Of a stretch of 64,000 nucleotides of DNA, positions 6,356-12,942 are shown in pieces. Below the pieces are notes generated by a model. The model saw nothing but the letters and a program-made list of their open reading frames with translations. It was not told where the DNA came from and did not search any database. Each line of letters opens with the position of its first letter. Within the stretch, counting starts at the first letter, position 1. A program made the translations under genes and the position numbers. Source of the stretch: a virus; the IMG/VR virus record IMGVR_UViG_3300014257_000015, positions 41,430 to 105,429 of that record; one strand, written 5' to 3'.

Positions 6356-7295
6356 GCCGAAAGTCACATTGCTGACTTGGACGAAAGACCCGTTGGAAAC
6401 TGTGTACTCTGTATGGTGGCAGTCGAAGAACGAAAAACCGTTGATGACACCGGATGAGGTGAAAGAAAATGTCCCGCCGTCTGAGGTCGAAGAGCTATTC
6501 AAAGCGGTAATAGCACAACGAATCCCTGTTGGAGAACACCTGGATTTCGTGTTTGTTATGGAGAACGTTTCTGTGTCTTGGCGTGAGCAGGCCGTTCGCC
6601 ACCGCATCGGGGTGAAAGTAGGCGGCGAACGTTTAGGGGTGGACGTAATACCGAACCTGGCTGATTCAAGCTGGTGGTCACAATCCATGCGCATCCAGAA
6701 TATGGGAAGTTTCTTCAGCAACGGCGCATACAGGATGCCAAAATCATTGGATGCTCACCCGGAAGCTAAAGCTGTTTTTTGCGACATCATGTGTGACATC
6801 GAGGCTGCGTACAATAATCTGATTGACATGGGTGTGCCGATGGAAGACGCCAGAGAGGTTATCCCACTCGGCGCGCAACATCGGATCAGCTGGAAGCTTA
6901 ACATAGGCGCTCTCCAGCACATCATGGAAAAGAGAGGTTGCTGGATACTGCAACTTGGAACGTGGGGGCCGATCATTACCGGGATGGTGGATGAGTTGGC
7001 CAACAAGGTTCACCCTGTGTTTCGCGAATTGGTGACGCCGCCTTGCATCCGAGGGGATAAATTCAACTCGTGTGTGTTCATGGAAGAGTGTCGCCGCCGT
7101 TTGACAGGTGATGATGAATTGCCACCGTGCCCACTCCACTACAACTACCACGTTCTGCCTGAATCGCAACGTGGAATGATTCCGCTGTTGGTCAAGAAAT
7201 TGGAAATCCCGATGAAGTCGGAGATGATGCGACGGTCGGAAGATTATGCGAATTTTTGGGGCCGAGATCCGTTCACAGGTGAAAAAATTGTGTGA
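6348..7295 (+). CDS. thyX: ThyX-family flavin-dependent thymidylate synthase homologue
   Basis: 315 aa, ATG 6348 with AAGGAG upstream. The ThyX signature begins with RHR at residue ~83 but carries about 20 extra residues before SSWWSQSMR, which corresponds to the usual SxxSxR part. A second conserved block follows, QHRISWKLNIGALQHIMEKR, then WILQLGTWGPI and HPVF. The C-terminal 60 residues contain several Cys, which is not usual. ThyX makes dTMP from dUMP with FAD and methylenetetrahydrofolate. The altered signature leaves open a related reaction such as dUMP hydroxymethylation; this is inference. Neighbours are the aminotransferase and a thymidylate-kinase-like gene. Confidence 0.75.
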   Translation: MAEPKVTLLTWTKDPLETVYSVWWQSKNEKPLMTPDEVKENVPPSEVEELFKAVIAQRIPVGEHLDFVFVMENVSVSWREQAVRHRIGVKVGGERLGVDVIPNLADSSWWSQSMRIQNMGSFFSNGAYRMPKSLDAHPEAKAVFCDIMCDIEAAYNNLIDMGVPMEDAREVIPLGAQHRISWKLNIGALQHIMEKRGCWILQLGTWGPIITGMVDELANKVHPVFRELVTPPCIRGDKFNSCVFMEECRRRLTGDDELPPCPLHYNYHVLPESQRGMIPLLVKKLEIPMKSEMMRRSEDYANFWGRDPFTGEKIV

Positions 7296-7872
7296 CAAGA
7301 TAATCGTGTTGGACGGGGTGAATGGGACAGGGAAATCAACGAGCGCAAAAGTTCTGCGCGAATTGACAGGGTGGCCCATCATACGGGCGTTTCGTGATGA
7401 CTCTGATTCACATCTAGGATACAACGCGCCTATGGAGGGAGAACTCAAAAAACTCGGCGTTCCTGTGAACACATACGTTGATGACTTGTACGTTGCTGAT
7501 TTTTTGCGCGCAACACGGCGAGGAGCGATATTGGATAGATCGATGCCATCGGCATTGGCATATCCGATGATGCGCGGCGAAGAGATAACACCAAAGACAG
7601 CAAAAAAATTGGTTGTTGTTTGGGAGCAGATTCTGCGCGCTGCGAAGATACCTGTGGTTTATGTTTGGATGCAAGCATCGCACGAAGTGGTGAAAGAGCG
7701 TTGTGTTGGACGGTGGCATCCAAACAAAGCACAATACGCCAAATTGGAATCGACTTTCAAGAGAGTTTTCGTGACGTTGTCGCTGTGCAAAAGAAGAGTG
7801 GTGACCACAGAGCTTAGTGAAAACGAAACGATCAAAACCGTTCGCCAGGTGGTGGATGATGCCGACGATTGA
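7288..7872 (+). CDS. thymidylate-kinase-like P-loop kinase
   Basis: 194 aa if TTG 7288 is the start (8-nt overlap with the preceding stop, AGGTGA upstream). ATG 7246 would add 14 residues and has GGAAG upstream. Walker A is IVLDGVNGTGKSTSAK at the very N-terminus, as in dTMP kinase. An LDRSMPSALAY segment resembles the DR motif of TMP/deoxynucleoside kinases, and VYVWMQASHEVVKER matches the strand and helix before the lid. Probably phosphorylates a dTMP-like nucleotide. A kinase acting on hydroxymethyl-dU in DNA is an alternative given the neighbours. Confidence 0.7.
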   Translation: MCDKIIVLDGVNGTGKSTSAKVLRELTGWPIIRAFRDDSDSHLGYNAPMEGELKKLGVPVNTYVDDLYVADFLRATRRGAILDRSMPSALAYPMMRGEEITPKTAKKLVVVWEQILRAAKIPVVYVWMQASHEVVKERCVGRWHPNKAQYAKLESTFKRVFVTLSLCKRRVVTTELSENETIKTVRQVVDDADD

Positions 7873-8191
7873 TGAAATCAGAGTTTGGTTGAGTGGCCAA
7901 GAGATCGAAGGATTGCCCGCTTTGCGTGAGCGTGAGCGTGAGCCAGAAGCGAAACATCCGCCGAAGGCAATGAAAACGCCTGCCGATATGCGCAACCAAG
8001 GGAGATATCGGCTGCACCGTGATGACTCCGGTCACGTCATCGATGCCACTTTGTATTTTGGAAAGTACAATGGGTTCTGCCTAAGTAAACTTTCAACCAA
8101 TAGAGAAGGGAAGGACTACCTGTCATGGATGTTGAAACAGGACTTCCCTGGTGAATTGGTGGAGTTGATCACCAGTATGGGATGGGCGTGA
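7859..8191 (+). CDS. small DUF3820-like protein
   Basis: 110 aa from ATG 7859 (ATG 7856 is adjacent). The N-terminal 50 residues are charged, with an RERERE run. The C-terminus, YFGKYNGFCLSKL then YLSWMLKQDFPGELVE, has the FGKYKG...YLxWL pattern of the DUF3820 family, often found beside or inside exonucleases. Function unknown. It sits directly before the polymerase gene with a TGATG overlap. Confidence 0.6.
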   Translation: MPTIDEIRVWLSGQEIEGLPALREREREPEAKHPPKAMKTPADMRNQGRYRLHRDDSGHVIDATLYFGKYNGFCLSKLSTNREGKDYLSWMLKQDFPGELVELITSMGWA

Positions 8192-11100
8192 TGGAAGACT
8201 TTGTAGGGTTGCACAACCATTCGGATGCTAGCCAACTAGACGGTGCTGGGAAAATATCCGAATACATCAAGGCCGTAGTCGAACGCAAGGCGCCTTCAAT
8301 CGCTTTCACCGAACACGGGACAATGCGCGGGTACCAGACGCAATATGATCAATGCAAAGAACACAACATCAAGCCAATTTATGGGATTGAATTCTATGTG
8401 GCCAATGACATGCGTCGAAAGGGCCTAACCGAAGACGAGCGCGCGGACATCACGAAAGGCAAACCTCGAAGCGAGCACAAAGATGCCATCAAGAAGTATG
8501 AAGAGCAACACGGCATCCGAGACAGATGGCATTTGACGTGCTGGGCGAAGAACGCAGAGGGAATGCGGAATATGATGCGCTTGGCGTCGCTTGCATACAC
8601 CGAGGGGTTCTACTACAAGCCGCGCATTGACTTGAACGAACTGTACAAGTACAAAGAGGGGTTGGTGGTGGCGACGGGATGTTGTTCCAGCGTCATCTAT
8701 GACAGGGCCGTGTTGGGGAAAAAGAAGCTTGCATTAGAAATTGCCGATGAGATGCGTGAACAATTTGGGGAAGATTTGTGGATTGAGATACAACCGCACG
8801 CAATCGAAGAGCAGGTGATCTCCAACCAGTTGGCACTGGAATTGAAGGATAGGTGGGGGAAGAAGGCGCGCCTGCTTGCAACGCAAGACGCACATTATGT
8901 CAGGCCGGAAGATTGGGAAACGCATGAAGTGATGCTCTGTATCGGAACCAATGATGTGATGAGCAACCCCGAGCGTTTTCGTTTCACCGGGAATGATTTT
9001 CATTTCAAAACCCGAAAGGAAATGTTTGCGAAGTTCAGATCAACACACGCTTACTTGACCAGAGAGCAAGTCAAAGAATCTTTGGACAACACGTTGGTGT
9101 TCATGGACACAATATCTGATGGCCTGGTTACCATCGATAAAGACAAGTGTCTCATGCCACCAATACCGGTTCCTGAGAAGTATGACGGCAATGAGTTCGC
9201 ATACTTGAAGGATTTGTGTTTGCGCGGTTGGGCATGGCGTGACATACCGGCCCGCGCCACTCTGTTGTCAAAGCGCGAGGGCGGCGACGAAGCAGAATGG
9301 CTGAAACGATACGTGGCAAGGTTGAAAAGAGAACTGACAGCAATCAAAAGCCAAAAGTTTGTTTCATATTTCCTTCTTGTTCACGATTTATACAATTGGG
9401 TGCGCCAGCAGGAAATCATGTGTGGGCCTGGACGAGGCTCAGCGGCGGGTTCGCTCGTTGCATACCTGACCGGCATCACATCGGTTGATCCGATAGAGCA
9501 CAATCTGTTGTTCGAACGATTCATAAGCCCAACGCGTGTCGACCAGCCCGATATTGATATGGACTTTGAGGATCGGCGCCGACAAGAGATCATCGAGTAT
9601 CTGCGAAACAAATACGGCAATGATAAGGTGTGTCAGATTGCCACCGTAGGCAAGCTTTCGGGGAAGGCTGTAATCAGAGACATATCGCGTGTTCTTGAAG
9701 TGCCGTATGCAGCAGTAAACCAAGTCACCAATTCCATCATCGAAAGAAGCAGCGGCGACGAGCGGGCCAGCCAGACGGTTGAGGACTCTTTCAAAGAATT
9801 CAAGGTGTGTCGCGAATTCAACGCCAAATACCCGGATGTTCTGAGATATGCGAAGAAGCTCGAAGGAATGGCCAAGACGCTTGGAATACACGCAGCAGGC
9901 GTCGTGACTTCTCCTGAACCGTTGATGAATCTTGTCCCATTGGAGACGAGAAAGCATGATGGCCGTGACGTTGTGGTGAGCGCCATCGATATGTACGGGG
10001 TGGCAGCGTGTGGGTTGCTGAAATTGGACGTTCTTGGGCTGCGAACGCTGAGTGTCATTCGTGAATGTCTAGAAGCAGTTGAACAACACACTGGTGAAAA
10101 GATCGACCTCGAACGCATTGATTTGAATTTGAAAGACGTTCTTCAAGGATTCACAGATCACGATTATTGTGGCGTGTTTCAGTATGATTCCCCGGGTGCC
10201 GACAAGATTTGCACAGGCGTTGAGTTCAAACACTTCGAGGACATCGCTGCCATGACAGCGTTGAATCGACCGGGCACCGCGCGAAGCGGCCTAGCCACGC
10301 AATATGTGGCACGAAAGCGCAACCCGAAATTGGTTGAAAAGGCATCGTTTCACCCAGCGGTGAGTGAAATCACGAAAGACACATTGGGAATCATCGTGTA
10401 TCAAGAGCACGTGATGCGTATTTTCACCGACATAGCCGGGTTTGCCCCAGCAACGGCGGACAGCTTGCGCAAGAAAATAGCCAAAAAATTTGGCGATGAG
10501 ACGATTGGAAAAGAACGCGAGAATTTCATTAAGGGTGCGATGGAAAATTGGGGTGACCGAGGGATGACCAAAGAGATCGCAGGAAAGATAATGGATGCGA
10601 TCACGTTCTTTGGATGTATACCTGGTGAATCGTTGGTTTTAGTGGTCGAGGGAAGTGATGAAGACTTGTGCGCATTGCGAGAGGAAAGTGTTGGCAAGGG
10701 GATTGTGCTCAATACACTACCAGAGGGAATACAGGAAGGAAAGAACGGTGATCGGGAATCCTGTGAGTTCAGAGCACAACAAGATAGGGGTGCTTGGGCG
10801 CGGGTGGAAGTCAGCGCCTGGGGCGAGGGTCATTGCGTCGAACAAGTTGCAATCCAAGAAGATAACAGGGGCATTAAATCCGTCTTGGAAGGGCGGACAC
10901 ATCAAAAACTTCAAACTAGCAAGGAACAGGTTGTTGAAGGAAGAGAAGGGATGTTGTCGTTGCGGCACTTCGTTGATCAAGGGATCAGGGCCGAATCAAA
11001 AGTCATTTCACATCCACCACAAGAATCGAAACAAAGCGGACAACCGAGAAGAGAACTTGGAAGTGCTGTGTCAAAGTTGCCACAGCAAAGAACACACGAA

Positions 11101-12942
11101 AGAAAAAATTGCTGGGCGACTTGGAAAGAAATCGAAACGCTAAAGGTTGGTGATTGGATAGTGTCTTTTGATGACGACATTCGCCCCGAGCTAAATAGAG
11201 TGAAAAGAATAGAGTGCACAGGGGTGAAGCCTGTCCGCAGGATGACACTCGAACAAGGCGAAATTTGGGCGACCGGATCGCATTGGTGGATGAATAGCAC
11301 AGGGGAATATATAGAGACAAAGGATTGCACGCCTGGTACAGAATTGCGTGTTGGTGATTCGATTTTCAAGGTTCTTGGTAATCGAAAAGATGGGCGATTG
11401 AAGACTTGGGACTTGGAGTGCGAATTCGAACCTAGCAACTATGCCGTCAGATTATTCAACAGCGATTCGTGTAATTACTTGATAAGCCATAATAGTTATG
11501 GATTCAACAAGTCGCATGCCACCGCATATGGAATCATCGCGTATTGGGAAATGTTCTTGAAAATACGCCACCCGATCGAATTCTATTGGGCGCTATTGAA
11601 GAACGAACCTGACCGAATACGAATCCAACAGATCGCTAAAGATGCTAAAAAACATGGCATAGAATTGTTGCCGCCGTCGGTGGTGAATAGCGGTAAGCAT
11701 TTCACAATAGACAGAGCAAATAATGCCATTCGTGGTTCGCTCGTCGACATCAAGGGCGTAGGTGATGCTGCGTCTGAATCAATCATGGTCGCCCAACCAT
11801 ACAAGGACTTCGGTGACTTGATTCAACGCGTGGACCGCCGAAAAGTACACAAGGGTGTCATTGTGGCATTGGCGAAGGCCGGGGCGTTAGATGACGTGGT
11901 GCCGAATCCTAAGTGGCTGATAGAAAACATCGAAGATTTTTGGACAGAGTTGGGGAAGAAGGGGTGGACAGAGAAAACAGAAAGATTGTTGCGAGATTCG
12001 GCTGATGCTCCGCAGTTCACCACCGAAGAGAGGCAGGTTGTGGCCTCGAAGGTTAGTCCACTCGCATTCGGGAAACATCCGCTCGATGCGTATGCGAATT
12101 TCATGGAACGTAGTGTGAAGGTTCCCATCGCGGCAATGTCTGATGAAGACTTTTTCAAAGACAATGACAATCAAGGCGTATTCATCGCTGGCGTCGTTGT
12201 TGAGGTGAAGTACAATCAAATTGGAGATTTCAACACAGGTGAGCTTCCCAGTGAGTTGGAAAGGAAACAGATGTTCTGGGGCCGCCGTTACGCCAATGTT
12301 AATGTCGAAGATCTTGGCGGGAAACAAAATAGGATCAAAGTGGATTTTGACATCTTTGATGATTATCGAGATGTGGTTGATTCTGGAATAGGAACGCCTG
12401 TTGTTCTTCATGCTTTTGTGAACGCGAGGTTTGAGAATTTACGTTGTCATTTCATGATCAATCTGGAAGAGTACAGGCTAGCAGTCGAAGCAGGACAAGA
12501 GTTGACAGTGTGGCAAAGCATAGTCGCTGGTCGCCATCCAGCCAAAGAATATGAATGGAAAGATCCGTCAAAGTTGATCAAATACAAGACCCCAGAGGGC
12601 GAAGAGCGCGAGGTGAAAAGGCGTTCCAATGCAATCAGGAACAAAGCATTTTGGGATCGCGTATCACCTTCGTTTGTTGGCGTTGTCACGCACGTTCGGC
12701 CAAAATATGACAAGAATGGAAACCGGATGGCATTCTTGGGATTGCTGGACGGTGGTTCGCGATTCATCAGCGTGATAGCATTCGCATCCAGTTGGACAAA
12801 AGAAGTGCGACGTGTTTTGAAACCCGGGGCGTTGGTGAAAATAGAATTGGACTCCAAAAGAGACAAACGCAGTTGGTCATATTTCTACAACGGCGGAAAA
12901 CTCAGGGTTCTGAGGTCAGCGCCATCAACCACATCACCATAG
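8191..12942 (+). CDS. dnaE: DNA polymerase III alpha subunit (DnaE) with intein
   Basis: 1583-aa precursor; ATG 8191 overlaps the preceding TGA. It starts with a PHP domain (GLHNHSDASQLDG, FTEHGTMRG). The C-family palm follows with PGRGSAAGSLVAYLTG and catalytic aspartates in PDIDMDFED (residue ~453), then the HhH and OB regions at the C-terminus. An intein interrupts the reading frame at 10615-11493, directly before the conserved SYGFNKSHATAYG helix. After splicing the protein would be about 1290 aa, near the usual DnaE length. This is the phage replicative polymerase, presumably acting with the gp32-like and HU-like proteins encoded just downstream. Splicing must occur for activity because the intein splits a conserved polymerase block. 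Confidence 0.95.
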   Translation: MEDFVGLHNHSDASQLDGAGKISEYIKAVVERKAPSIAFTEHGTMRGYQTQYDQCKEHNIKPIYGIEFYVANDMRRKGLTEDERADITKGKPRSEHKDAIKKYEEQHGIRDRWHLTCWAKNAEGMRNMMRLASLAYTEGFYYKPRIDLNELYKYKEGLVVATGCCSSVIYDRAVLGKKKLALEIADEMREQFGEDLWIEIQPHAIEEQVISNQLALELKDRWGKKARLLATQDAHYVRPEDWETHEVMLCIGTNDVMSNPERFRFTGNDFHFKTRKEMFAKFRSTHAYLTREQVKESLDNTLVFMDTISDGLVTIDKDKCLMPPIPVPEKYDGNEFAYLKDLCLRGWAWRDIPARATLLSKREGGDEAEWLKRYVARLKRELTAIKSQKFVSYFLLVHDLYNWVRQQEIMCGPGRGSAAGSLVAYLTGITSVDPIEHNLLFERFISPTRVDQPDIDMDFEDRRRQEIIEYLRNKYGNDKVCQIATVGKLSGKAVIRDISRVLEVPYAAVNQVTNSIIERSSGDERASQTVEDSFKEFKVCREFNAKYPDVLRYAKKLEGMAKTLGIHAAGVVTSPEPLMNLVPLETRKHDGRDVVVSAIDMYGVAACGLLKLDVLGLRTLSVIRECLEAVEQHTGEKIDLERIDLNLKDVLQGFTDHDYCGVFQYDSPGADKICTGVEFKHFEDIAAMTALNRPGTARSGLATQYVARKRNPKLVEKASFHPAVSEITKDTLGIIVYQEHVMRIFTDIAGFAPATADSLRKKIAKKFGDETIGKERENFIKGAMENWGDRGMTKEIAGKIMDAITFFGCIPGESLVLVVEGSDEDLCALREESVGKGIVLNTLPEGIQEGKNGDRESCEFRAQQDRGAWARVEVSAWGEGHCVEQVAIQEDNRGIKSVLEGRTHQKLQTSKEQVVEGREGMLSLRHFVDQGIRAESKVISHPPQESKQSGQPRRELGSAVSKLPQQRTHERKNCWATWKEIETLKVGDWIVSFDDDIRPELNRVKRIECTGVKPVRRMTLEQGEIWATGSHWWMNSTGEYIETKDCTPGTELRVGDSIFKVLGNRKDGRLKTWDLECEFEPSNYAVRLFNSDSCNYLISHNSYGFNKSHATAYGIIAYWEMFLKIRHPIEFYWALLKNEPDRIRIQQIAKDAKKHGIELLPPSVVNSGKHFTIDRANNAIRGSLVDIKGVGDAASESIMVAQPYKDFGDLIQRVDRRKVHKGVIVALAKAGALDDVVPNPKWLIENIEDFWTELGKKGWTEKTERLLRDSADAPQFTTEERQVVASKVSPLAFGKHPLDAYANFMERSVKVPIAAMSDEDFFKDNDNQGVFIAGVVVEVKYNQIGDFNTGELPSELERKQMFWGRRYANVNVEDLGGKQNRIKVDFDIFDDYRDVVDSGIGTPVVLHAFVNARFENLRCHFMINLEEYRLAVEAGQELTVWQSIVAGRHPAKEYEWKDPSKLIKYKTPEGEEREVKRRSNAIRNKAFWDRVSPSFVGVVTHVRPKYDKNGNRMAFLGLLDGGSRFISVIAFASSWTKEVRRVLKPGALVKIELDSKRDKRSWSYFYNGGKLRVLRSAPSTTSP
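10615..11493 (+). mobile_element. intein in DnaE, carrying an out-of-frame HNH gene
   Basis: 293 codons from Cys1 (CIPGESLVLV, block A) to HN (NYLISHN, block G), with Ser as +1 extein residue. TGSH in WATGSHWWM is block B (TxxH). KEIETLKVGDWIVSFDDD is the second part of the N-terminal splicing domain. Between block A and this part lie about 165 codons with no resemblance to an intein; that stretch is instead coding in the next frame for an HNH endonuclease. Without it the splicing domain would be a mini-intein of about 130 aa. The insertion point is 2 residues upstream of the known cyanobacterial split DnaE intein site (before CFNKSH). Confidence 0.88.
10658..11143 (+). CDS. HNH homing endonuclease nested in another frame inside the intein
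   Basis: 161 aa from ATG 10658, preceded by its own GAGGGAAG ribosome site. The frame is shifted +1 relative to dnaE. The N-terminus has CAHCERK...GLCSIHYQRE, a zinc finger common in phage HNH enzymes. The C-terminus holds the HNH core: CCRCGTSL, FHIHHKNRNKADNREENL, VLCQSCHSKEH. The TAA at 11141 falls inside codons for the intein's KEIETLK segment, so both frames code over this end. Likely cleaves intein-free dnaE alleles to spread the element. Alternatives are a programmed frameshift that joins it to the intein, or a decaying insertion; its own start and Shine-Dalgarno favour a separate protein. Confidence 0.88.
   Translation: MKTCAHCERKVLARGLCSIHYQREYRKERTVIGNPVSSEHNKIGVLGRGWKSAPGARVIASNKLQSKKITGALNPSWKGGHIKNFKLARNRLLKEEKGCCRCGTSLIKGSGPNQKSFHIHHKNRNKADNREENLEVLCQSCHSKEHTKEKIAGRLGKKSKR

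Follow-up and report, generated by a model that had tools for sequence, protein, structure and literature searches.

The dnaE gene of the window and its intein

The window, that is, the whole stretch of 64,000 nucleotides that was analysed, belongs to a virus record of 105,429 bases. All of the features described in it below lie on the plus strand. Positions 8182..12942 hold a phage dnaE gene, coding for the DNA polymerase III alpha precursor. Its product matches the Pfam models of DNA_pol3_alpha (1.5e-82), the finger domain (1.2e-40) and PHP (2.1e-38), as well as the HHH domain. The first-pass annotation had stated that the dnaE frame stays open across an intein, and this is correct: frame 1 is uninterrupted from 8182 to 12942 and encodes 1586 aa.

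The intein itself comprises 293 aa in frame 1 (10615..11493, dnaE residues 812-1104) and splits the conserved polymerase motif ITFFG|SYGFNKSHA. Its residues 1-14 (CIPGESLVLVVEGS, 10615..10656) form the block A strand, as seen in an alignment to mini-inteins from the same site. The remaining splicing domain runs from WKEIETLKVGD onward (11122..11493); it was assigned by its motifs and by a model confidence (pLDDT) mostly above 90, and contains block B (TGSH, residues 220-223), block F (WDLE, 265-268) and block G (NYLISHN). The codon of the S+1 nucleophile (11494..11496) is the first codon of the C-extein SYGFNKSHA. Thus, the residues of a class 1 intein are present, namely the N-terminal C1, the TxxH of block B (T220-G-S-H223), H292-N293 and S+1. 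The insert is a class 1-type intein and would be self-splicing. The raw 293-aa intein gave no match to the Pfam intein models; with the loop described below removed, it matches the Hint model with an E of 8e-5, which is below the gathering cut-off.

Empty alleles of the site exist. In 13 related phage dnaE genes (L004, L005, L008, L010-L015, L018, L021-L023) the sequence is contiguous at the point of insertion.

A second contig, L002, is otherwise near-identical to the window, and its dnaE differs only by 9 bases within window positions 11525-11536. At these bases L002 carries an inverted copy of a sequence located about 50 nt downstream, so that EFDRVAYW replaces AYGIIAYW. This is either a templated inversion or an assembly fold-back.

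An HNH gene nested in the next frame

Inside the intein, in the +1 frame relative to dnaE, there is an open reading frame for an HNH endonuclease (10658..11143; 161 aa plus TAA). It is preceded by a ribosome-binding-site-like sequence, GAGGGAAG (10648..10655), with a GAGG core 6 nt before the ATG at 10658; a GTG at 10655 is an alternative start. The Shine-Dalgarno (SD) sequence, the ATG and the TAA that had been proposed for this gene are hence all found. The product matches the Pfam models HNH (PF01844, E 5.6e-6) and HNH_3 (E 6.5e-6). Its catalytic and zinc domain (10952..11098, HNH residues 99-147, PF01844) shows a CxxC, HIHHKNR, NLEVLCQSCH and EH, and the catalytic and zinc-binding C, H and N residues are invariant in an alignment of the five members of its family (alignment A1, see below). 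The last 22 nt of the reading frame overlap codons of the splicing domain (WKEIETL, from 11122).

Since phage group I introns commonly carry HNH genes, one could think of an intron within the intein that is removed from the RNA. There is, however, no Rfam intron match in 10000-12000, the codons of the splicing domain run on without interruption to either side, the end of the HNH gene overlapping some of them, and the host frame has been kept free of stops, for which an intron has no requirement. We consider an intron extremely improbable.

The virus record of the window holds no other PF01844 HNH. A search of the "phages" collection with the window HNH returned no close relatives, and a scan of genome contigs with the same query gave short partial matches only, mostly to the N-terminal zinc motif. 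The AlphaFold2 (AF2) model of the HNH alone was poor (pLDDT 66), and Foldseek with this poor model returned nothing at E <= 0.001. Streptomyces phage Goby was considered as a further nested case and rejected, as its annotated HNH is located upstream of dnaE, not within it.

The frame-1 loop

What the HNH gene spells in frame 1 is a stretch of residues 15-169 of the intein (10657..11121), a by-product of the HNH reading frame that is largely disordered in the model. An intein loop of about 165 residues had been predicted; with one boundary adjusted, its length is 155 aa. In the AF2 model of the intein, residues 1-20 and 171-293 are placed with high confidence (mostly above 90 as block means), and the pLDDT is below 50 at residues 36-51, 53-149 and 157-160. 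Foldseek matched this model to gp41-1, DnaB, NpuDnaE and other inteins with an E of about 1e-6. Because of this confidence profile and these matches, the HNH-derived peptide is predicted to be a disordered loop after block A. The frame-0 product would then combine an intact intein fold of the class 1 type with a disordered stretch of about 125 residues.

The same DnaE site in other phages

We found further inteins at the same DnaE site that carry an HNH in the +1 frame while frame 0 remains open, namely in L003 (identical to L017), L006, L009, L019 and L024. The HNH of the window, L006, L009, L019 and L024 belong to one family, with 40-50% identity to the window HNH. This family occupies two slots, always in the +1 frame: just after block A in the window, and between blocks B and F in the other four. 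The location just after block A, which the first-pass annotation had pointed out, is real and is not unique, since L003 and the identical L017 use the same slot, with an HNH of a different type. The usual slot for a nested HNH is between blocks B and F, and the slot after block A is a variant. There is an in-frame version as well: L030 has a small in-frame HNH at the same DnaE site and served as an ordinary control.

In several cases an intein-bearing dnaE is closest to an intein-free one. For example, the nearest relative of the L019 dnaE is the intein-free L021 (81%), and that of the L006 dnaE is the intein-free L004 (72%). As this is often so, it fits with mobility of the element.

We noted two further features of these genes. 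In L007 (around 7406-8265) and L044 (around 7235-8007), inteins with an in-frame HNH are found at a second DnaE site, FNK|SHA, a few residues downstream; the first residue of the L007 insert is apparently Thr, not Cys. Furthermore, the C-terminus of the L003 HNH (7504-8064; CIYLGCGRVTYSKNMCSMHYSRSYRLKR) resembles the N-terminal zinc motif of the window HNH, as if a DNA-binding module had been shuffled between the ends of the HNH in L003 and the window.

Within the family, we compared how the two frames have diverged. The HNH frame shows 40-52% amino acid identity between members, as against 32-43% identity at its third codon positions. For the host-frame loop the identity is 19-31%, compared with 17-23% expected for a mere by-product of the HNH gene (z 0.6 to 3.0). 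Since these values are mostly near the by-product expectation, the loop is constrained mainly against stops. An additional constraint on its sequence is possible, with z up to 3.0 in some pairs, and would be weak at most. Note that the intein alignment (A3) was built from pieces, because a whole-length alignment pairs loop to loop via the HNH homology in the other frame. We found no close pairs for a dN/dS analysis in two frames, L002 being identical across the intein.

Stop avoidance in the host frame

The overlap had been called maintained on the grounds that 162 stop-free codons would be expected at roughly 4 in 10,000. The arithmetic is right, as (61/64)^162 is about 4e-4; the null model is wrong. 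We therefore calculated the probability of an open host frame, P(open), with the HNH protein sequence held fixed and its codons drawn synonymously. For the window this gives 2.1e-6 with the codon usage of dnaE and 7.5e-5 with the codon usage of the HNH gene itself, so that the claim of a maintained overlap stands on a different calculation. The third frame of the window contains 9 stops, which matches the chance expectation. For the other five DnaE loci, P(open) lies between 1e-13 and 5e-3. For 83 non-redundant loci of the survey described below, its median is 3.5e-5 with the codon usage of the host gene and 4e-4 with that of the HNH gene; the third frame, with a mean of 16 stops, is not open in any of them.

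The codons reveal how the stops are avoided. In the +1 register, an HNH codon ending in T has to precede AA, AG or GA for a stop to arise in the host frame. Ahead of these stop-forming codons, the ratio of NNT to NNC is 0:98 in the DnaE set, compared with 174:130 elsewhere, and 0:962 in the +1 nestings of the survey, compared with 2235:1627 elsewhere. While the zero counts of NNT follow from the host frame being open, the many NNC codons indicate that silent replacement has taken place, without avoidance of the respective amino acids. In +2 nestings, a codon that begins with A comes after methionine in 0 of 47 cases. Seven free-standing relatives of the terminase-type HNH (see next section) have between 1 and 14 stops in the equivalent frame, and hence an open host frame is no by-product of the HNH protein sequence. 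This supports the reading that the host frame is kept open by selection against stops.

On the other hand, inteins frequently lose their endonuclease, and the HNH might be a decaying relic whose frame is open by chance. Its catalytic and zinc residues are intact, its amino acids are conserved where third positions have diverged, and a host frame as open as this one is far below the chance expectation. We regard decay as very improbable.

Recurrence beyond dnaE

Several relatives of the HNH in viral contigs are also nested out of frame in inteins of other genes, namely of the terminase large subunit (L089, L105, L107, L120, L122, L125) and of the portal protein (L110, L113). The portal gene of L113 (1209-4553) apparently has two inteins, of which the second has the nested out-of-frame HNH. 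Out-of-frame HNH genes are moreover found in C5 DNA methylase genes without an intein (L087 2755-4467, L088 2752-4458, L106 2932-4263). These three, from environmental viral contigs, resemble the published ShiLan case (see below).

To survey the layout, we scanned viral contigs with two alignments of HNH genes from terminase and portal inteins and took the best 160 loci. In 145 of these, a longer host frame encloses the HNH gene in a different register, mostly in inteins of the terminase gene terL; this fraction is no unbiased frequency, since the seeds of the survey were themselves nested genes. The remaining 15 are free-standing or ended by a contig edge, and none of the 160 was classed as an in-frame HNH fusion. 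An intein block F/G pattern was matched in 134 of the 145 nested loci, and the other 11 show block G by eye. Terminase and portal inteins thus provide at least 83 non-redundant loci with a nested HNH. Among sequenced phages, Acinetobacter phage Highwayman, Tetrasphaera phage TJE1, Rhodobacteraceae phage LS06-2018-MD07, Synechococcus phage S-EIVl and Gordonia phage Clown each have an unannotated nested HNH in terL. With these five named phages included, the double-coding layout occurs in about 100 distinct phage inteins; it is therefore a widespread and largely unannotated design, and no single curiosity.

The recurrence bears on a technical explanation. The window is a metagenomic contig, and frameshift errors in sequencing or assembly could hide an ordinary intein with its HNH in frame. 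Yet the intein sequence is identical in L002, which is listed as a contig of its own, and the same pattern with conserved frames is seen in six divergent DnaE loci, in at least 83 non-redundant others and in the five named sequenced phages. Compensating indels that would put the HNH in frame, which the first-pass annotation had named as a possible refutation, are excluded as a general explanation by this recurrence in divergent loci, and for the window we give errors of this kind a negligible probability.

Free-standing relatives of the terminase-type HNH adjoin terL or the terminase gene terS (L141, L143, L308, L309, L310, L312; the named phages are BP10, CL2, Shemara, PAE1, EauM-23 and SN1). 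This suggests an exchange between free-standing and intein-nested HNH genes around the same target gene.

A related question is whether the HNH belongs to the intein at all. It could be an independent mobile gene that targets intein DNA, a nested parasite and not the homing enzyme of the intein. The two slots used by one HNH family, the different HNH type found in the same slot in L003 and the free-standing relatives beside terL in several named phages speak for this possibility. However, among the 79 loci examined there is no intein at the DnaE site without an HNH, and therefore intein and HNH appear to travel together. An independent parasite is thus unlikely in our judgement.

Expression and proposed mechanism

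How might the HNH be produced? All six nested reading frames at the DnaE site have a start that is preceded by an SD match of at least 4 nt. For the terminase-type nested HNH starts there is no significant enrichment of SD sequences (11 of 39 and 16 of 44; p 0.07 in a per-start comparison), and internal initiation is for this reason well supported only in the DnaE group. The missing enrichment in the terminase families, together with the fixed frame of the nested genes in most families, speaks for programmed ribosomal frameshifting from the dnaE frame, which would produce a fusion of N-extein and HNH with no internal initiation. In the window, however, a stop in the HNH frame about 15 nt before the ATG leaves a very short stretch for slippage, and precisely this stretch holds the SD and the ATG; the SD-preceded starts in all six DnaE cases point the same way. 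Such a fusion is not needed for the window HNH, which has an SD and an ATG of its own, and we think frameshifting improbable.

We propose that the element is very probably a homing mini-intein that consists of two overlapping genes, the HNH being translated separately and intein and HNH being copied together. From frame 1, DnaE would be made with a class 1-type mini-intein inside it, which would splice in cis and excise itself, so that the polymerase is rejoined. The +1 frame would encode a separate HNH homing endonuclease, made from its own internal start and not fused to the intein. This enzyme would most likely cut intein-free dnaE alleles at ITFFG|SYGFNKSHA, whereupon intein and HNH would be copied together. 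The analysis itself shows how the two genes are arranged, that this arrangement recurs, that stops are avoided, that a Hint fold is predicted and that the HNH residues are conserved; we infer from this that the intein splices, that translation of the HNH starts internally, and that the HNH cleaves the empty site and brings about homing. The host frame would be kept free of stops by selection, since the host gene is presumably essential, and the encoded loop may drift. Avoiding stops is easy in the +1 register, as every codon ending in T has a synonymous counterpart ending in C.

Beyond the window, we are somewhat inclined to see a widespread and unrecognised class of phage inteins that consist of two genes in overlapping frames, yield separate proteins and home as one unit. 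Such a class would have arisen several times, in two frame registers and in at least two slots of the intein, with stop avoidance shaping the codons of the endonuclease.

Since intein surveys read the endonuclease in frame, inteins of this kind would be scored as lacking an endonuclease despite a complete one in the other frame. This would bias counts of the homing cycle (invasion, loss and re-invasion) and hide both gene overlaps and the diversity of homing enzymes. The layout separates expression of the splicing protein from that of the nuclease. Furthermore, the approximately 100 distinct overlapping gene pairs are a natural set for studying how one strand codes for two proteins, and the nested HNH are new enzymes whose target sites in the terL, portal and dnaE genes can be predicted.

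Comparison with known systems

In fractured genes, reportedly described by Dassa and colleagues in 2009, split inteins are said to flank a free-standing homing endonuclease gene. The window shares with them a separate endonuclease gene between the halves of an intein. In contrast to a fractured gene or a split intein, the intein of the window is one continuous frame that overlaps the endonuclease gene, and dnaE is a single open reading frame (8182-12942) with neither a stop nor a restart.

Canonical full-length inteins, such as the VMA inteins (PMC8966425), have an endonuclease that is read in the same frame and belongs to the intein protein itself; the dCTP deaminase of cyanophage CL131 likewise has an in-frame HNH intein (PMC6293099). 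Common to these and the window are a Hint splicing domain and a homing endonuclease inserted at a conserved site. The difference is that the endonuclease of a canonical intein is an in-frame domain located between blocks B and F, whereas that of the window is encoded by a separate, overlapping gene in the +1 frame, directly after block A.

In the literature covered by our search, which excludes the preprint by Gosselin et al. (bioRxiv 10.1101/2025.01.02.630785) and Gorbalenya 1998, we found no publication on an out-of-frame endonuclease inside an intein. The preprint deals with actinobacteriophage inteins of "non-canonical architecture" and is cited in PMC11855218 for overlapping frames in actinobacteriophages; its inteins may include similar cases.

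The closest published precedent that we found is the ShiLan element, together with the Pacc40 insertion, where an out-of-frame HNH lies in phage DNA methylases (Arsenault et al. 2025, PMC11855218). As in the window, an HNH in a shifted frame sits in an open host gene, is distributed sporadically and is hidden from annotation. The ShiLan authors detected neither an intein or intron splicing domain nor a ribosome-binding site (PMC11855218), whereas the window HNH has an SD-ATG and lies within a splicing element. Consequently, the host protein of ShiLan and Pacc40 would keep the insert, while the HNH of the window is placed inside an intein that is predicted to be able to remove itself.
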